Assembly: GCF_900111255.1 (NCBI RefSeq)
Contig: NZ_FOGP01000003.1
Location: forward strand, 186,001 to 250,000
From: Parafannyhessea umbonata
Lineage (GTDB): Bacteria; Actinomycetota; Coriobacteriia; Coriobacteriales; Atopobiaceae
Direction: 5' to 3'
Length of the DNA: 64,000 nt
The notes beneath the pieces are model-generated. The model made no database searches and was not told the DNA's origin. It was given only the letters and a program-made list of their open reading frames with translations. A program made the translations under genes and the position numbers. This document shows positions 19,158-28,225 of this stretch, piece by piece. Each line of letters opens with the position of its first letter. The first letter of the stretch is position 1.

Positions 19158-19715
19158 CTAGGCCTTCTTGAACGGGAAGTTGAAGGCAGCGATGAGTGCC
19201 TTGCCCTCCTCGTCAGTCTGGGCGGTGGTCACGATGGTGATGTCCATACCACGAGTGCGGTCAATGGAGTCGAAGTCGATCTCGGGGAAGATCAGCTGCT
19301 CGGTGACGCCCATGGAGAAGTTGCCGTGGCCGTCAAAGCTGTTGGCCTTGATGCCTCGGAAGTCGCGGATGCGCGGGATGGCGATGGCGATCAGGCGATC
19401 CAGGAACTCGTACATGCGGTCGCCGCGGAGGGTAACCTTGGCGCCGATAGCCTGGCCCTGACGCAGGTGGAAGGTTGCGATCGACTTGCGAGCGTGCGTG
19501 ACCATCGGCTGCTGGCCGGTGATGGCGCGAAGGTCGCGGACGGCGCCCTCGATGGCCTTGGAGTCGGTAGCGGCCTCGCCGACGCCCATGTTAACGACGA
19601 TCTTCTCGATCTTCGGGATCATGTTGACGTTCTTGTAGTTGAACTGCTTCTGCAGCTCGCCGCGAATCTCGGAGCGGTACTTCTCCTTGAGGCGCGGGGT
19701 GATGCTCTCTGCCAT
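19158..19715 (-). CDS. rplE: 50S ribosomal protein uL5
   Basis: 185 residues from the ATG at 19715, which follows AAGGAGTG. The core [24 protein letters not shown] and the C-terminal [10 protein letters not shown] are typical of uL5, which binds 5S rRNA. In most bacteria rplX lies directly upstream; here rplX is 8.2 kb away, behind three surface-protein genes. rplE therefore begins its own transcript, with a long leader and a candidate promoter at 19807-19835. Confidence 0.98.
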
Positions 19716-19806
19716 TTGACACTCCTTACTATGGGGTTTTAAGTGCGGGGTCGGTCCTCGCACCTCCTGGATGGCTCCAGGAGCCGGTTGCGCCAGATGA
19801 GTTCGA
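19716..19806 (-). other. rplE leader with two hairpins
   Basis: The 5' leader of rplE can form a 7-bp stem (CTCCTGG with CCAGGAG, loop of six) and a shorter GC stem (GTGCG with CGCAC) before the ribosome site. A regulatory role, for example autogenous control by a ribosomal protein, is possible but not shown by sequence alone. Confidence 0.4.
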
Positions 19807-19835
19807 GACATAGCTCTCCCTATCTAGAGACGCAA
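19807..19835 (-). promoter_or_regulatory. Candidate rplE promoter
   Basis: On the minus strand, TTGCGT (19830-19835), 17 bp, TATGTC (19807-19812). It is a moderate match. A promoter is needed somewhere here because the surface-gene block separates rplE from rplX. Confidence 0.45.
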
Positions 19836-19916
19836 GTTGCAATAATACGCCCTTAGGAGCCGAAAGGGGCCGATAGCTGGAATATCCACAATTCTCCGCA
19901 GCTTGTTCACGTACGC

Positions 19917-19953
19917 GAGAAGGGCTTGGCGTCCGAGTCGTCAAGCCCTTCTC
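19917..19953 (-). other. Long stem-loop after the surface-gene block
   Basis: A perfect 12-bp stem (GAGAAGGGCTTG with CAAGCCCTTCTC) and 13-base loop, 32 bp past the last surface gene. No T-run follows on either strand. It probably ends or processes the surface-gene message, but is not a textbook terminator. Confidence 0.55.
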
Positions 19954-19985
19954 CCCTGTTTCTACACATATACCCAAATGCGGTG

Positions 19986-20789
19986 TTAGTCGCCCTGATG
20001 CTCCTTGTCCGCCGTATCGTCGTGGTTGGTCGCGCCGTGGCCGGACTTCTTATGGCGGGCCACAAGGCCAAGGCCGATCGCCACAAGCCCGAGCGCGAGC
20101 GCCGGGGCGATTGGCGCAACGAGGTCGCCGGTCTGGGCCAGACGCTCGAAGAGTGACGCCTGCTTGGGTGTCTGCCCCTCCCCCTCGCGCGCGACGGCCT
20201 CGTCCTCGCCGCGCTTGGTGACGGTCACGGTGCGCTCGTCCGGCAGCGCGTCGTCATAGAGGGCAAAGCTGAACTTGTCGGTCAGAACGCAGTTCTGGGA
20301 GCCGTCCGCCTTCTCGGCGCCGGCCAAAATGACCACCGTGGTCTCGAAGTTGGAGTCCGAGAGCAGATAGAAGCTGACGGGGTCCGCCTTCTGGTAGCCG
20401 TCCGGGGCGGCAAGCTCCACGAGGACGTAGCGTGTGGCATCGGCCGCATTGGCCGACGCGTTGAGGCGCGCGTTCTTGGCGATATGGTGCACCTCGCTTG
20501 CCGTCCACCAGCTGTCGACGGGGTCCGAGAGGTCGCCTGCGTCGTAGTCCTCCTGGGTGAAGATGGCCATGTGGGCGCCCACGACGTACTCCCCGCCGTC
20601 GGAGCCGACCTTGGCGACGTTGAGCTTGGTGGTCTCGTCGCTCACGCCGGCGCCGTCGTGCTTGTACTCGAGCGTCACGTCGGCAGCGACCGCCGGCGCC
20701 GCAAGCGCGCACGAGAGCGCCGCGCAAATCGTCACCACGAGCAGAAGAGGCGCGGCGCAGCGGGCCGCCCCATTGTCGATGCGATTCAT
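19986..20789 (-). CDS. Cell-wall-anchored SpaA-like surface protein
   Basis: 267 residues. A signal peptide (residues 1-36, ending near APAVAA) leads to one Cna-B/SpaA-like beta domain: GGEYVVGAHMAIFT near residue 65 and VLVELAAPDGYQKAD near 125, the usual lysine-to-glutamate isopeptide layout. The C-terminus is a sorting signal: LAQTG at about 217-221, a hydrophobic stretch and RHKK, then an unusually long hydrophilic tail of about 20 residues. A sortase would cut LAQTG and link the protein to the wall. Its ATG overlaps the stop of the giant upstream gene (TAATG), so the two are translationally coupled. No sortase gene is in the window. Confidence 0.8.
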   Translation of the reverse strand: MNRIDNGAARCAAPLLLVVTICAALSCALAAPAVAADVTLEYKHDGAGVSDETTKLNVAKVGSDGGEYVVGAHMAIFTQEDYDAGDLSDPVDSWWTASEVHHIAKNARLNASANAADATRYVLVELAAPDGYQKADPVSFYLLSDSNFETTVVILAGAEKADGSQNCVLTDKFSFALYDDALPDERTVTVTKRGEDEAVAREGEGQTPKQASLFERLAQTGDLVAPIAPALALGLVAIGLGLVARHKKSGHGATNHDDTADKEHQGD

Positions 20790-23700
20790 TATTTCAGTCC
20801 CTTGACGAGTTGAGAGAACGTCGGATCGTCCTCGTAGACGAGGTGGTACGTGCCACCCTCGGCGCTCACCGTGAAGTACGCGGAGCGATACGGGTCGACC
20901 AGGTGGCCGGCAGGGGCGGTCTCCTCCTTGAAGTAGTAGGCGACACCCTCGGTGAGGGGCACGTCGAAGGTCATGTAGCCGTCGTCGCCCGAAACCTGGT
21001 TGCCCATGTAGACATCGTTGCCGTTGGCGTCTATCATCCACAACCCGTAGCGGGCGTCGGCAAGCGGCTCGTACGGCGCGTCCTTCGAACGCTTCTGGAC
21101 GCGGACCGCAAGCGTCTTGACGGAGTTCACGAATGTCGGGTCGTCGGTCGGGGCCCCGTCCTTAGCGTAGCTTCCGCGCGCGACCAGCCTGCCGCCCTTG
21201 CCCTCGGTCACCGACACGTGATAGACGATGGTCGAGCCATCGTAGTTGATGGTCTGGTCGGAGCCGTCAGCCTGCTCGACGATGCGGAATTCATACTCGC
21301 CGGGCTGTGTGAACGTAAGTCCGCCGATCAGCTGCCCGGAACCGTCCTGCTGGCTGGACGCATCGAACCTAACGGCGCCCGTCGCGCCGTTGGTCGCCGT
21401 GGCCAACAGATTGCCCTGGGCGTCCAGAAGGGCGAAGCGGAACTGCCCCGCGCTCATCGTGGCACCCTTGAGCTCCTTCCTCACTTCGGGGACGACGCTC
21501 ACCTTGCGGACCCTCTGGGCCTTGCCCGCAAGCGAGACGCCCCTGAAGGAAAGCCTCACGTTGGCGTTGTTGTAAAAGGCAATTGCGCGGTCGCTCGAAA
21601 GGCTCGCATCCACCCCCATAAGCTGCTGGCAGACCGAGGTGGTCTGGTCAGGGGCGACGTGGACCCTGATCAGATACTCGCTGAGGTCGTTGGCGTCAGG
21701 CTGGTCCTGCAGCTCGCGCAGGACATAGTAATAGTCGCCCGGCTTGCGGTAGCCGATCTGGGGAAGGTCGACCCCGGCGACGCCGTTCGCGAACTTCTGG
21801 TTGTGAACGGTCACGCTGAACTGCTGGCCGTCATCGACCACGTCCTGCCCCCCGGCATACGCAACGCCTGCCCCGGAGCGCGAATTGCCCTGGGCATCGG
21901 CCGCCTTGAGCTCATACGAGAAGGACGCGGCGCCATCGGGCCCGAAGTAGTGCTTCTCCGCACGGATGGACGCGGTCGCGTCGAAGCGCGTGTTGACGAA
22001 GGTCGCTGGATCGCCGCTCGCCGCATCGCCGTCGTAGCTGACGGCGGTCTGCAGGGTTCCGCTGCCGTCGTCGGTGACGTGAACCGTCACCTTGGCCTCG
22101 TGAGCATCATAGGTGACGCCGTCAAGCGTCCGGGTCCCGTCGCCGTTGTCGGTGGCCCCGGAGGGAATGTCCTCGCGCACGGAGTATGCGAAGTCCTTCT
22201 CGTAAACGCGCTTGCCGCCCTCAACCATCTGCGAGGAGTCAAAGGCGAGCGGCTGGAACCTCACCGTGCCGTCGGATCCGTTGGTCGCCTGCCCCACAAC
22301 GTTGCCGTCGGCGTCGGAGAGCGTGAAGCTGAACTGGCCCTCCGCAAGGGGAAGTGCCTGCCCCGCGGCGGATCTGAAGGCCTTGCGGACCTCGACCGCA
22401 GCCGAACCCTGGGCCTCGTAGCTGTTGGTAAAGGCAATGCCGCCGTTGTCGTAGGAGGCGGTCGCCTCCAGCTGGCCCCGGCCGTTGTCGGCAACATTGA
22501 TCGTGACGGGCTGCGCGCTGTCGTCGTAGGTGACTCCCCCGCGCGCGGCATCGTCCTGGGGCGCAAGCTCCCTCACCACGTAGTGGTAGCTGCCCGCCTT
22601 AGTAAACTGGTTTGCAGGAGTGCTAAGCGAGAACGTGCCGTCCGCACGGTTGGTGGCGGTGACCAGCGGCTCGGTCGCGTCGGAGCTCTCGTACAAGCCG
22701 AAGGCGAACTCCCCGGCCTTGAGGTCGCGGCCCTTGAGGACCTTCGTGCCCTCTACGGTCACGCCCGTGGGATCGGTTTGGTACGTGTTGACGAAGTCAA
22801 GCGCGCGTGCGCTATCTGAGGCCGTCACGCCAAGGGTGCCGTCGCCGTTGTCGGCGACATTTGCCGTCACCGTATAGGTTGCGGAAGAGTACGTGACACC
22901 GTCCCCCGTCTGCCCGGCGCCATCCTCGCTCACGGTGTAGCTGTGGCTTCCGACGTCCTTGCAGGTGTACTCGATGGGAGCGAAGATGATTTTCCCGCTC
23001 GCATCGTTAGTGCCCGTCGCCACAACGTCCTGCCCCTCGCGAACGGTGAAGTGATAGGCACCCGCCTCGAGCGTCTTGCCAGTGAGGGTCTTGGTCCCCT
23101 CGAGCGTCAGGGAGCCCTTCGCCTCGTAGCTGTTGCGGAAGACGGGGACCTCCGCCCGACCGTCGTCATAGCTCACGCTCGCGACGAGGCTGTCGCCCTC
23201 CTTGCGGACGTCGACCACGGCCTTGTGCGCCGACGTGTCATAGACGACGCCGTCCTTGGTCGCGTGCTGGGCATCCACGCCCTGGGGCAGCTGCTCCGCA
23301 ATCTGATATTCGTAGCGGCCAGGCGCGTCAAACTCGATTTCGCCGAAGGAAGGCGCCTTGTTGTCGCTCGTCGCGGTGATGGCGTCGGAATCGGGCATAG
23401 GGGCGCCCTGGGTCAGCGGGCTCAGCCTGAAGCCGAATGCAGTGCCCTTCTCCCACTTGTTGTAGTCCTTGGACACGCCGAGCGTTGCCGTGGCGCGCGC
23501 CATGGTGGTCTTCGCGTTGTTGAAGCAAGGCTTACCCTCTACGGGCTGCGTGCATGCCTCGTCGTAGTAGTACTCGGGGTCGGACGCAACATACTGGTAC
23601 GCCGTCGTACCATTCTGGGTGGAGACCACGCGGGCGACCCTCACCTTGGCGTAGTAGACGGTCGCGTCCGACTTGTAGGAGTTGCCGTCTGCGTCGGTCG

Positions 23701-25645
23701 CGCCCTGCGACTCCCTGATGCGGTACAGGTAGTCCTGTCCGTCGGTCGAGGAACTGTAGTTGTCTTGGTTGTACTCGATCGCGTCGAACGTGACGTCCTT
23801 GCCGTCGTTCTGCTTGGTCTGGATCGTCTTCCACCGGTCGCCATCCTTGTAGTCGAGGTCGAAGGAGAAGCCCGAGGCCGTCGAGTCGCTGCCGTCTACC
23901 AGCTTGTTCGCACCGAGCGTTGCCGACGACCCCTCGTGAAGGACCTTCTCCTTGTCGTAGACGTTATGCCACTCGCCGCTGCCGATGACGACCTTGTCGG
24001 CCACGAGCCAGCCGCTCGACGTCCCGTCAACCTTAACGCAGGCCTTGGGCGCAAGTACGACGCCAGTGATGGAGCCGCAGATGTCGAGGTCCGTGGCGTT
24101 CATGAAGTTCCAGACGATGCTGGTGGGCACTCCGGCCTTCGCTGCCTGGTCACCCAGGAAGCTGTCGGCGCCCTGGCCATTGACGTCGTACTTCTGGATT
24201 CTGGACACGTTGCCCGTGACGTTGAACACGATGGCCTGGTTGTCGTCCTTGTAAATCTGCAGCCTGGACGCCTCCGAGAGCGCCTTGCCGTAGAGGTCGT
24301 CGTCAAGCGTCACATAGTAGGCGCCCGCACCGCGACCCCTCGTGTCAAGCTCGTACTTCTGGCTGTTCTTGTTGTAGGACAGTGCGGCGTTGGCCTGATG
24401 AGCGCCGAGTGTGGCCGACTGGGAGCGACCCTGGTCCAGAAGGGCATTTACCTCGGCCTCGAGTTGCTCCGCGGACTCGCTGTCGTCAATCTTGAGGTAG
24501 CTTGCCCCGACGCTCGCGACCTTGCCCTTGTCCTCGGGGTTGGTCTTGACGTACGCGCCGTCGCCCTTGATCTTGAACTCGGTGTCGACGTGAGCCAAGA
24601 TGAACGTCTGCTCGACGGGATTGGTTTTGTCGTTTCCCGTTTGCGTGCTACACCTGCCCGTGATGGCCGCGACGTTGGTCTCCGCGTCCCCTCCCATGAG
24701 GGTGAAGTCTCGCGCGATGACGCCGTAGTACACGCCTCCCTTCAGGATGGAGTTGTACGTGTCGCTTCCGGGAGCCGAGAAGCCCTTGGCCTCGATCTTG
24801 TACTCCTGCCCCGCCTTCGCGTCTCCCTGGGGCAGCGTCAGGACGTACCTGTTGCTCAGCACGTCTCCCGTAGAGTACCTGGCCTCGTTTTGGTCGTACT
24901 TGTGCTCCGCCCTCAGGTCGCTTCCCGTGAAGAGCGTGACCTTGTACGAGACGTTCGGGTCAATCGAGCCGCCTCCGCCGCCGATCTTGTTGCCGTTCTG
25001 GTCGCGCAGCTCGTCAACGTTTGCACCATACAGGCCGTTTCCGCGATACTCGAGCGGCGCCGTCACGCGGGCGTTGTTCGGACCCTCGATGTAGACGGCA
25101 AGCCTCTCGCCAATCTGGTCGTTAGCGGGCTTGCCGTCGGAGTCGGTCAGCTGAAGCGAGAAGTCCAGCTGCCTGCCGTTCGCCGCAGAAAGGTTGTTCG
25201 CGCTTGTGGCGAGCGACGTCGCCTCGACGCCGTCCTGCACCCGCTCGGCCTCGTGCGTGCTCACGCCGATGCCCATACCGCCCTGAATCTGGCTGGCGCG
25301 AACGGTATACACGCCGTCCGCGTCAGGGGCGAGCACCTGCTTGCCGCCATTGACCGAGACCGAGACCTCGTCAAGCTCGCGCCCCTCGTCGGGCGAGACT
25401 CTGAACCTGAAGTCTGCGCCAGCGGGAAGCGTCACCTTAGTCGCAGGCGCGCTGATGGTCTGTCCGTTGTAGCTGATGTACGCTCCCTCGAGGCCCAGGG
25501 CCACGTCCACGGGTTGGGCTGGCGCCGCAACCGCAACGGGCGCCTCCTCCCTCCCCTCCTCGACAGCGCCAGCCGTCACCGGCATCTGGGTCACCACCAT
25601 GGCGAATGCAAGAAATGCGGAAAGGGCCCTGCGCCCCATGCTCAT
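20789..25645 (-). CDS. Giant secreted fibre protein with pilin-type isopeptide repeats
   Basis: 1618 residues from the ATG at 25645, which follows AAGGACAGC; the frame is open further upstream but this start gives a clean signal peptide (cleavage near residue 27). Residues about 300-560 look like a choice-of-anchor A domain (GVIARDFTLMGGDAETNVAA, later SIVWNFMNA and GSGEWHN). From about 575 follow seven or so Spy0128/FctA-type pilin isopeptide repeats, starting near 575, 714, 840, 958, 1078, 1218 and 1378. Each has the pattern K-x-L-x-G-x-x-L and a closing YxVxE. A Cna-B domain fills 1508-1600. It ends FSQLVKGLK without LPXTG or membrane helix, so it needs a partner for retention; the coupled downstream protein is the obvious candidate. 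Likely a surface stalk or pilus-like adhesin. Confidence 0.82.
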   Translation of the reverse strand: MSMGRRALSAFLAFAMVVTQMPVTAGAVEEGREEAPVAVAAPAQPVDVALGLEGAYISYNGQTISAPATKVTLPAGADFRFRVSPDEGRELDEVSVSVNGGKQVLAPDADGVYTVRASQIQGGMGIGVSTHEAERVQDGVEATSLATSANNLSAANGRQLDFSLQLTDSDGKPANDQIGERLAVYIEGPNNARVTAPLEYRGNGLYGANVDELRDQNGNKIGGGGGSIDPNVSYKVTLFTGSDLRAEHKYDQNEARYSTGDVLSNRYVLTLPQGDAKAGQEYKIEAKGFSAPGSDTYNSILKGGVYYGVIARDFTLMGGDAETNVAAITGRCSTQTGNDKTNPVEQTFILAHVDTEFKIKGDGAYVKTNPEDKGKVASVGASYLKIDDSESAEQLEAEVNALLDQGRSQSATLGAHQANAALSYNKNSQKYELDTRGRGAGAYYVTLDDDLYGKALSEASRLQIYKDDNQAIVFNVTGNVSRIQKYDVNGQGADSFLGDQAAKAGVPTSIVWNFMNATDLDICGSITGVVLAPKACVKVDGTSSGWLVADKVVIGSGEWHNVYDKEKVLHEGSSATLGANKLVDGSDSTASGFSFDLDYKDGDRWKTIQTKQNDGKDVTFDAIEYNQDNYSSSTDGQDYLYRIRESQGATDADGNSYKSDATVYYAKVRVARVVSTQNGTTAYQYVASDPEYYYDEACTQPVEGKPCFNNAKTTMARATATLGVSKDYNKWEKGTAFGFRLSPLTQGAPMPDSDAITATSDNKAPSFGEIEFDAPGRYEYQIAEQLPQGVDAQHATKDGVVYDTSAHKAVVDVRKEGDSLVASVSYDDGRAEVPVFRNSYEAKGSLTLEGTKTLTGKTLEAGAYHFTVREGQDVVATGTNDASGKIIFAPIEYTCKDVGSHSYTVSEDGAGQTGDGVTYSSATYTVTANVADNGDGTLGVTASDSARALDFVNTYQTDPTGVTVEGTKVLKGRDLKAGEFAFGLYESSDATEPLVTATNRADGTFSLSTPANQFTKAGSYHYVVRELAPQDDAARGGVTYDDSAQPVTINVADNGRGQLEATASYDNGGIAFTNSYEAQGSAAVEVRKAFRSAAGQALPLAEGQFSFTLSDADGNVVGQATNGSDGTVRFQPLAFDSSQMVEGGKRVYEKDFAYSVREDIPSGATDNGDGTRTLDGVTYDAHEAKVTVHVTDDGSGTLQTAVSYDGDAASGDPATFVNTRFDATASIRAEKHYFGPDGAASFSYELKAADAQGNSRSGAGVAYAGGQDVVDDGQQFSVTVHNQKFANGVAGVDLPQIGYRKPGDYYYVLRELQDQPDANDLSEYLIRVHVAPDQTTSVCQQLMGVDASLSSDRAIAFYNNANVRLSFRGVSLAGKAQRVRKVSVVPEVRKELKGATMSAGQFRFALLDAQGNLLATATNGATGAVRFDASSQQDGSGQLIGGLTFTQPGEYEFRIVEQADGSDQTINYDGSTIVYHVSVTEGKGGRLVARGSYAKDGAPTDDPTFVNSVKTLAVRVQKRSKDAPYEPLADARYGLWMIDANGNDVYMGNQVSGDDGYMTFDVPLTEGVAYYFKEETAPAGHLVDPYRSAYFTVSAEGGTYHLVYEDDPTFSQLVKGLK

Positions 25646-25686
25646 GCTGTCCTTCACGTTCGTTCTCTCGATTCGAGCTCTCATAC

Positions 25687-27705
25687 CTAGCGGACCTCGC
25701 GTCCGTCTGCGCCATCGTCCTCCGCGCGCCTCCTGCGTCTGCGGAGCACGGCCACAATCACCAGCGCAAGCGCGGCCGCGCCCGCGATGGCGGCCAGGCA
25801 CTTCTCCCAAAGGGGCGTCTCTGCTGCCCACGTGCCCGCACCACCCGAGGCGAGCGGCGTCTCGTTGTCGTCAATGCGCACGGTGTTAAGGTCGTCGCCC
25901 TCGCCGTTCACGATTGTCGCGTCACCAAACCCGTTGTCCACCGTCGACAGCTGCTGCCCCGCCGGAGCGCCCGTCGTGACCGCATCACGCGGCGACGCGG
26001 AACGCTGGTCAGACGTGTCCTCGCGTGTTCCGTCGCGTTCGGTTCCCAGGTCGACGTAGGTCGTCCTCCCCGGAACGAAGTCGAATAGCACATTGGTGAT
26101 GACGGTGCGCTGGCTTGCACTGTCGTTCACGTCGCGGTAGTAGACGGTGTACGTGGAGCCGGGCGTGTAGTAGCCGGTCCTGACGCCACCCTCCTGCCCG
26201 TCGAGTCGGACGTAGCTCTTCGGCCCGACGGTCAGGCTTGCTGGCGTATCGATGACGACGTCCTCGCGCATGTCGGCGCTCAGCGTGCGGTTGTCCTCGC
26301 CAATCTGCTCCCCCGTCGCAACGTCGACGTACCTGACCGTAACGGCGCGGTCCGAACGGTCGACCTTGGTCCCCCTTGGGGCGTAGTAGACATATGTGAC
26401 GGGGCCGCTCTGGCCCCACACGTAGCTGAAGTCGCTACCGTTGACGGGAGACCAAGTCTTGCCGTCAACGTCCATGTTGCCAGCGTAGTAGCTCGCCGGA
26501 CAAGAAGCCCCGTTGGACGGGCCAACCTCGACGCGCTCCATGCCGAGCACCCTGCCCGACCCCTCCTGGGTGGCATCGATCTTGACGATCTGCCAGTAGG
26601 TCTTGCCCTGCACGCGGCGATAGCGCACGTCAAAGGTGCGCTGCCCGTCTTGCACGCCCTCGTCACCGGGGGCAAGCGAAAGCGTCGCGTCGCCGTCAAG
26701 CTCGTACGCCTCGATCACGCCGTCGCGGTCGGCATCCTTGTAGAGCGCGGGCGGATTGGCGTAGATGACGTCGCCAGCAACCGAGACGCTGTCGCAGGCA
26801 AGCACGTTGCCCCGTTCGTCGACCATGCGAATCTTCGCAGTATAGAACCCCTGCTTCCCGGCAAGGCCGTCACTCACCTTCTTGCAGCGCACCGTAAAGT
26901 CGCGCTGCCCAGGGTTCGCGGCGTCGAGCGTCTTGTTAAAGAAGACCGTGCGGTAATAGCCGCCATTGTCGGCCTTGATGATCTGAGGCACCTCGACCGA
27001 GCGATGCTCGCCCCAGGCGACGTCACCTATGCCCTGGACAAGAAGCCTTTCTCCGCTGTCATCCACATACGTAATCGAGCCAGACTCCACCTCGTGACCA
27101 TCGTTTTGCGCCTTGTATCGATACGCAGAAGAGGCCGTGCAGCCTCCGTCGAGTTCGTAGGTGTCGCTGCCATACGAGATCGTCTTGGGCGCCGCAAACG
27201 CGCGCTGCTCGGATCCGATGGTCCTCCAGGCAATGAGACGCTTCCCAGCAACGCCATCCAGCTCCGCATAGACCGGCTCCACCCTTCCGCGGTAGAGAAG
27301 GGCGTGCTCGTCAAAGTCGGAATAGGCGCTTATCTCGTAGCTTGCCGAGGGGTCGATTGCGCCGAAGTCCGCAGACACGATTCCGGTGACCCCTCCGTCG
27401 GAAGACGCAAGCCCGTCGTTCGAGAGAGTGTACGCAAGATGGTCGGCGAAGAGCTTGCCGTCTTTGGTAACCGAGCAGTACACCGTATCGCCGACGCTTC
27501 CGTCCACCGAGAGGACATCGATCGAGGTGCCGCTCTGTACAAGCGCATAGCAGTCGTTGCCCGTGACGCTCAGCGCCAGGGCGCTCGTCGGGACGCACAG
27601 GAGCCCCAGTCCCAGGGAAGCCGCACATGCACCTGTCAGCGCAACGCCCCTAAACCGCATTCCGCGTAGTTGCATTCGATTAATTTCTGCATTGCGCACG
27701 TTCAC
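25687..27705 (-). CDS. Membrane-anchored MucBP-like surface protein
   Basis: About 672 residues if it starts at the GTG at 27705, which has GAGG 7 bases upstream; ATGs at 27675 and 27660 lack ribosome sites. A signal peptide ends near residue 44 (PTSALA). The middle has several beta-rich repeats; residues 452-526 (AVTVRYVDVATGEQI to YTVYYRDV) resemble a MucBP mucin-binding domain. Near the C-terminus, ETPLAS (615-620) precedes a transmembrane helix (about 636-654) and six arginines. There is no LPXTG, so it is probably held by the helix. It is the first gene of the surface block, 41 bp before the giant fibre gene. Confidence 0.75.
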   Translation of the reverse strand: MNVRNAEINRMQLRGMRFRGVALTGACAASLGLGLLCVPTSALALSVTGNDCYALVQSGTSIDVLSVDGSVGDTVYCSVTKDGKLFADHLAYTLSNDGLASSDGGVTGIVSADFGAIDPSASYEISAYSDFDEHALLYRGRVEPVYAELDGVAGKRLIAWRTIGSEQRAFAAPKTISYGSDTYELDGGCTASSAYRYKAQNDGHEVESGSITYVDDSGERLLVQGIGDVAWGEHRSVEVPQIIKADNGGYYRTVFFNKTLDAANPGQRDFTVRCKKVSDGLAGKQGFYTAKIRMVDERGNVLACDSVSVAGDVIYANPPALYKDADRDGVIEAYELDGDATLSLAPGDEGVQDGQRTFDVRYRRVQGKTYWQIVKIDATQEGSGRVLGMERVEVGPSNGASCPASYYAGNMDVDGKTWSPVNGSDFSYVWGQSGPVTYVYYAPRGTKVDRSDRAVTVRYVDVATGEQIGEDNRTLSADMREDVVIDTPASLTVGPKSYVRLDGQEGGVRTGYYTPGSTYTVYYRDVNDSASQRTVITNVLFDFVPGRTTYVDLGTERDGTREDTSDQRSASPRDAVTTGAPAGQQLSTVDNGFGDATIVNGEGDDLNTVRIDDNETPLASGGAGTWAAETPLWEKCLAAIAGAAALALVIVAVLRRRRRRAEDDGADGREVR

Positions 27706-27724
27706 TGCGCCGCCTCGCTTACCG

Positions 27725-27778
27725 AATATATATTGACAGTTTTGACCATAAATGACCTTTGTCAGTCTATCCCAGTCA
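27725..27778 (-). promoter_or_regulatory. Candidate promoter with phased GTCA repeats
   Basis: Upstream of the surface block, the minus strand has TATATATT (27725-27732) as a good -10. Instead of a -35 there are three direct GTCA repeats (27753-27756, 27743-27746, 27734-27737), 10 and 9 bp apart, and two TGAC copies further up (27775-27778, 27761-27764). About one turn of DNA between copies suggests an activator or repressor site. Confidence 0.5.
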
Positions 27779-27853
27779 ACGCCTGGACCGTAACGTCTAC
27801 CGGAGTCAAAACGTTTTTTCGCGCAAGCATCAAATTGACAGCCTCGCGACATG

Positions 27854-27890
27854 AAAAAAGAGGCCCATCCCCTTACGGGAACGAGCCTCT
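27854..27890 (-). terminator. Terminator after rplX
   Basis: Stem AGAGGC with GCCTCT, a small internal loop, then TTCCC with GGGGA and loop GTAA, followed on the minus strand by six T. It lies 20 bp after the rplX stop, so the first half of the spc operon ends here. Confidence 0.88.
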
Positions 27891-27910
27891 GAAAGTCGTC
27901 TAAGCAAAAC

Positions 27911-28225
27911 TTAGAACTTGGCGCCGCACTTCTTGCAGACGCGGACCTTCTTGCCGTCCTCGACGTCGTGGCCGACACGAGTGGCCTTGCCGCAGCTGGG
28001 GCAGACGAGAGCAACGTTGGAGACGTCGATTGCAGCCTCCTTCTCGACAATGCCGCCCTGCTGGCTGGCCTGGGTCGGGCGCTGGGCCTTCTTCACGACT
28101 GCAACGCCGCGAACGATGACCTTACCCTCAGCGGGAAGGGCAGCAATGACCTCGGACTGAGTGCCCTTGTCCTTGCCGGACAGGACCTCGACCTGGTCTC
28201 CCTTCTTAACATTCATCTTTGCCAT
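27911..28225 (-). CDS. rplX: 50S ribosomal protein uL24
   Basis: 104 residues. The KOW motif region [20 protein letters not shown] is at the N-terminus. The C-terminus has two CxxC pairs (CPSC and CKKC), a likely zinc site found in many Gram-positive uL24 proteins. uL24 initiates 50S assembly. It is the last gene before the terminator and the surface-gene block. Confidence 0.97.

Follow-up and report, generated by a model that had tools for sequence, protein, structure and literature searches.

We analysed a 64,000-nt stretch of the genome of the gut bacterium Parafannyhessea umbonata (the window, in whose positions all coordinates are given). Within it, three co-directional genes, all on the minus strand, form a cassette encoding first a membrane protein, then a giant protein (P0001) and then a small protein (P0002). 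The cassette is placed between the ribosomal-protein genes rplX and rplE, i.e. inside the ribosomal-protein operon, and it is likely to be transcribed separately because a terminator-like hairpin follows rplX (Table 1). The original prediction had missed both the gene for the membrane protein and the rplX/rplE setting, which are found in the sequence.

Table 1 Features of the cassette and its flanks, in order of reading on the minus strand.
Feature	Window positions	Strand	Remarks
rplX (ribosomal protein L24)	27911..28225	-	upstream flank
Terminator-like hairpin with T run	27859..27890	-	just 3' of rplX, ahead of the cassette; consensus scan only
Upstream cassette gene	25687..~27675	-	start codon uncertain; directly upstream of the giant
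P0001, giant anchorless adhesin, 1618 aa	20789..25645	-	ATG 25645, TAA 20791-20789
Adhesive domain PF20597 (pAdhesive_15), P0001 residues 308-561	23963..24724	-	E 8.7e-16, sub-region scan
Stalk of FctA (Spy0128-like) domains	21119..23914	-	PF12892, six placed matches in the ORF
Domain A, terminal SpaA/CnaB domain, P0001 residues 1507-1618	20792..21127	-	PF17802, E 1.8e-7
TAATG, one base shared by the giant's stop and the small gene's start	20787..20791	-
P0002, small sortase substrate, 267 aa	19986..20789	-	proposed wall base; ATG 20789
N-terminal segment of mature P0002	20634..20681	-	candidate docking element only; alignable across split and fused forms
Domain B, CnaB2-like, with Lys60, Glu125 and Asp179	20250..20651	-	profile match to structures of CnaB2 of FbaB (SpyCatcher), E ~1e-9
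Sorting signal: LAQTG, hydrophobic stretch, basic residues	20055..20141	-
rplE (ribosomal protein L5)	19158..19716	-	downstream flank

Cassettes with domain A also adjoin rplE in related genomes (G001, G024, G028, G093, G094, G096 and G100, by our labels), both flanks being visible in G024; in G014 the cassette is located elsewhere and rplX and rplE lie ~270 nt apart. The gap between the two genes is 8.2 kb here (window 19717-27910), ~32 kb in G001 and 1.0-1.4 kb in G010 and G015. It exceeds 1.5 kb and holds unrelated genes in other genomes of the family, and elsewhere measures 80-500 nt. The rplX-rplE junction looks like an insertion hot spot within the ribosomal-protein operon. Near the cassette of G100 and G028 (loci L204 and L205) are a sortase gene, a pilin-like protein of the LPSTGG type, small secreted proteins and a SipW-like signal peptidase, which together make up a larger surface locus.

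The prediction of a long repeat protein with a signal peptide and no anchor of its own agrees with what we find, down to the exact coordinates. The repeats of P0001 are FctA domains, for which the whole-protein scan returned PF12892 over seven stretches with an E value of 1.1e-98; the adhesive domain was not listed by that scan and came from a scan of sub-regions. The signal peptide is the only strongly hydrophobic stretch of the protein, and no sorting motif or membrane helix was found outside it by inspection of the sequence and a hydropathy scan. Over its last 300 residues the 19-residue hydropathy peaks at 0.53, compared with 2.16 in the sorting signal of P0002, and a hydrophobic C-terminus is present in none of the 16 other giants examined. 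P0001 ends instead in domain A, characterised in the alignment by the motif GHLVDPY together with Lys1518 and Glu1574, and related to BcpA in the PDB (E 4.5e-7). FctA domains are restricted to P0001 in this genome. A second large surface protein (L038, G000:C2:4893-7545) has an N-terminal domain in common with the giant and runs off the end of its contig. As a control we looked at G014, where two further FctA proteins, both lacking domain A, bring anchors of their own: one ends in TPSTGD followed by a helix and a tail, the other in a helix with a basic tail. Another FctA protein of G014 was left out of this comparison of anchors as its frame breaks.

The predicted overlap of the giant's stop with the start of a SpaA-like protein bearing LAQTG was likewise exact in its coordinates and its single shared base. 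A sequence resembling a ribosome-binding site, AAGGGA, lies 5' of the ATG of P0002, and the encoded protein consists of a signal peptide, a SpaA-like domain, LAQTG at residues 217-221, a hydrophobic stretch and a basic tail. The SpaA-like match has an E value of 1.1e-4 with a bit score slightly below the Pfam cut-off. An internal bond in domain B is likely, since its lysine, glutamate and aspartate are kept as in CnaB2 of FbaB. AlphaFold gave a plausible domain for mature P0002, though with a mean pLDDT of only 62.5 and with residues 1-16 at low confidence.

A single sortase match was found in this genome, on another contig, and a single one in G001. The sortase of this genome scores as class B at 146.5 bits, just under the curated cut-off of 153.75, and other predicted substrates encoded in the genome have the same xTGD motif as P0002. 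We infer that this class B-like enzyme would fix the small protein to the wall. A dedicated pilin sortase is absent from the locus as contained in the window; class B sortase genes do occur inside related cassettes at L200 (G269) and L202 (G384).

The product of the upstream gene has a signal peptide, a repeat region, a C-terminal membrane helix (hydropathy 2.81) and an Arg-rich tail. The motif RIDDxxTPLASG ahead of the helix is invariant in the three sequences compared. The protein matches no Pfam or NCBIfam family above cut-off, its repeat region included. Orthologues are present at L031, L032 and L035, and two families have them in loci of both the split and the fused kind.

The original prediction had proposed checking whether homologous pairs co-occur in other genomes, and they do, in 18 genomes from three families. 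We searched 140 genomes of the family using one profile for domain A and one for the small protein (B), and then surveyed the class (398 genomes); genome-wide counts rest on searches across the genomes. Among the 140 family genomes, each of the 18 strong B matches (E below 1e-20) lies either next to domain A or in one chain with it, and 18 of the 21 strong A matches (E below 1e-15) have B. The remaining three are second copies in G093 and G081, where the locus holds a complete pair, and a degenerate fragment in G077. The class survey added split pairs in family f2 (G332, G312, G351, G384 and G360) and family f6 (G426, in which the small frame begins just 3' of the giant's stop). The small partners in other genomes have a signal peptide and an LPXTG-type signal, and the relatives that carry names are for the most part animal-gut MAGs of Atopobiaceae and Coriobacteriaceae, along with Olsenella and a single Adlercreutzia MAG. 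Giants that have no immediate partner are found only in loci that also hold a small gene: to the second copies of G093 and G081 is added G269, in which the small gene lies in the same locus between an upstream-type gene and the class B sortase gene preceding the giant. At the tandem loci L103 (G093) and L104 and L129 (G081), two giants with domain A and one small protein were detected, as if one base served two fibres.

The 19 split junctions, from 18 genomes of three Coriobacteriales families, range from -14 to +58 nt, and the one-base overlap of the TAATG type occurs in just 3 of the 18 measured pairs (G000, G351 and G384). The claim that coupled translation implies matched amounts of the two proteins gains no support from this comparison, and a universal start-stop overlap is ruled out. 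So is a fusion product made by frameshifting, as both the distance and the frame at the junction vary among relatives.

At about ten loci, A, B and an LPXTG-type end are encoded in a single chain: G025 (Olsenella sp. KGMB02461), G073, a second locus of G094, L130 (the Adlercreutzia MAG, possibly conspecific with one of the G-labelled genomes), G393, G190, G347, G407, G324 and G171. In a FastTree phylogeny of A plus B, the fusions form one clade (support 0.999), apart from the G094 copy, which groups with the split pair of G001 (0.966). The two separate positions imply at least two conversions between the one-chain and two-chain forms, in a direction that the midpoint-rooted tree does not show. 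The divergence of A is correlated with that of B over 19 pairs (r 0.785; 0 of 5000 permutations as high), as expected given that shared descent alone would produce such a correlation. The fusions are the strongest evidence for B as the putative anchor partner of A. Adjacency and fusion together indicate a functional linkage of the two proteins, and do not by themselves identify the surface through which they would bind.

Several observations bear on how such binding might occur. An AlphaFold model of a natural fusion contains two complete domains, one with seven strands and one with eight, and a linker of low confidence connecting them, with no defined interface between A and B; the alignment behind it comprised rows of the fusion and of domain A only, small halves being excluded because they misaligned onto domain A. 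A fold search with this model returned tandem CnaB pilins with poor superposition. Docking by donation of a strand to an incomplete CnaB domain of the giant is unsupported, as seven strands are predicted for domain A by itself. A conserved C-terminal tail of the giant was also considered as a docking peptide; many Atopobiaceae pairs have it, and G014, G081 and G351 lack it. Lysine and glutamate are conserved in the alignment of domain A, the lysine invariantly so; in the alignments of A and of the small protein, the latter shows, outside its own domain, no fully conserved residue that could act as acceptor in an intermolecular isopeptide bond, and a non-covalent dock is the default for this reason. 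It is doubtful that the two are a natural covalent docking pair, with lysine and glutamate on one chain and the acceptor on the other. Were they such a pair, the fibre would lock onto its wall base after secretion without a sortase, as a counterpart of SpyTag/SpyCatcher that would convert between one-chain and two-chain forms in evolution.

The most reasonable explanation of these data is that P0001 is a fibrillar adhesin anchored to the wall through a distinct subunit, the small protein serving as its sortase-anchored base. We consider this probable: the small protein is probably the base of the fibre because the pair recurs in relatives and is fused in some of them. Of the original proposal, the role of P0002 as base thus gains support from the conserved pairing and the natural fusions, whereas the intermolecular isopeptide bond suggested there does not. 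The giant would be exported by means of its signal peptide and arranged with the adhesive domain distal, the FctA stalk in between and domain A nearest the cell; the small protein would be exported separately, whereupon sortase would cleave it at LAQT|G and attach it to peptidoglycan. Domain B, perhaps together with the N-terminal segment, would then hold domain A, most simply by non-covalent contact, and the resulting order A-B-wall would be the same as that which some relatives encode in one chain. The contact between A and B, the attachment of the small protein to the wall and the location of the giant at the surface are all what we infer from sequence.

The upstream gene could be given the anchoring role instead: its membrane protein (or another factor) would hold the giant, and the small protein would be a wall protein that is encoded in the same operon and serves some other function. 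Its product is membrane-anchored, the gene is as well conserved in the cassette as the small gene, and it accompanies the giant in nearly all loci examined. We nonetheless think this unlikely, as the gene persists beside fused giants that own an LPXTG-type anchor (L130, L131 and L203) and the partner to which the giant has been fused is the small protein, not the upstream protein. There is also only a slight chance that sortase joins the threonine of the small protein to a lysine of the giant as in a pilus, which would make the small protein a cross-link or cap rather than a wall base. FctA pilins of group A Streptococcus are indeed polymerised by a class B sortase (PMC7900414, PMC3019223), and the class B sortase genes in two related cassettes and the invariant lysine in domain A would fit; however, that lysine is equally compatible with an internal CnaB bond, and the single sortase in this genome and in G001 must serve wall proteins too; the xTGD motif is common to other predicted substrates. 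Furthermore, in the fusions the sorting signal lies at the end nearest the cell, a position from which it would need to anchor the chain.

Release of the giant, which would then act in the medium or matrix and be no more than co-expressed with the small protein, would accord with its lack of an anchor of its own, yet the fused forms are wall-anchored by sequence, and splitting would have to reverse their location; we regard release as very improbable. The possibility to which we attach almost no weight is that the split is a sequencing error or a pseudogene of a single anchored adhesin. Fused forms do exist and some MAG copies are frameshifted (G024 and G077), but the small gene comes with a start, a sequence like a ribosome-binding site and a signal peptide of its own, and 18 genomes of three families show the split. 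An arrangement seen again in so many genomes can be put down neither to chance nor to a sequencing error. A C-terminal sorting signal hidden in the giant by such an error, one of the two outcomes that the original prediction had named as refuting it, is excluded.

If a separate-subunit anchor is the right reading, the pair and its fusions provide a concrete, testable case of an adhesin anchor encoded by a separate gene. One wall base could then serve several fibres, as is suggested by the tandem loci in which a single small protein was detected beside two giants, and some of the adhesins that appear anchorless could be annotated through the neighbouring gene. The A-B pair may also offer a starting point for a natural protein-docking tool.

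Among open-licence papers we found no published description of the giant/small pair, which resembles several known systems in part. P0001 is like Gram-positive fibrillar adhesins (PMC9210967, PMC8286594) in being very long, with an N-terminal adhesive domain, a repeated stalk and a signal peptide. Of the three features of such adhesins it has two, an adhesive domain that is distal and adhesive by its family name, and a repetitive stalk, and lacks the anchor in cis; it is the next gene, not the same chain, that supplies the proposed anchor. The excerpted text of one survey (PMC9210967) gives a known anchor for only about half of its training/reference set and puts forward binding to other surface proteins as a possibility for stalks that extend to the C-terminus, with no partner named in that excerpt. 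The FctA/FctB T pili of group A Streptococcus (PMC7900414) also combine FctA-type domains, a class B sortase and a small LPXTG protein as base, the putative role of P0002. Here, in contrast, the FctA units are repeated within one gene, no pilin sortase lies beside the cassette in the window, and the giant, unlike a T-pilus subunit, cannot be a sortase donor because it has no sorting signal. Two hallmarks of a sortase-assembled pilus, a sorting signal on the major subunit and a dedicated sortase in the locus, are thus absent, whereas the anatomy of P0002 would suit a small wall-anchored base. In the cellulosome of Ruminococcus flavefaciens, the sortase-anchored ScaE holds a large protein without LPXTG (PMC5301203), as P0002 would here, although neither protein here contains a cohesin or dockerin (Pfam at E 1). 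The csc/WxL clusters (PMC1534035) similarly unite in one operon the genes for a protein anchored in the membrane, a large protein lacking an anchor and a small LPXTG protein; WxL and DUF916 domains were not found here (Pfam at E 1), and CscD proteins have 90-140 residues and no conserved domain (PMC1534035), whereas P0002 has a CnaB2-like domain. That domain is a sequence relative of CnaB2 of FbaB, the parent of SpyCatcher/SpyTag, with lysine, glutamate and aspartate in corresponding places, and differs from it in being the body of a separate anchor protein rather than being itself split.
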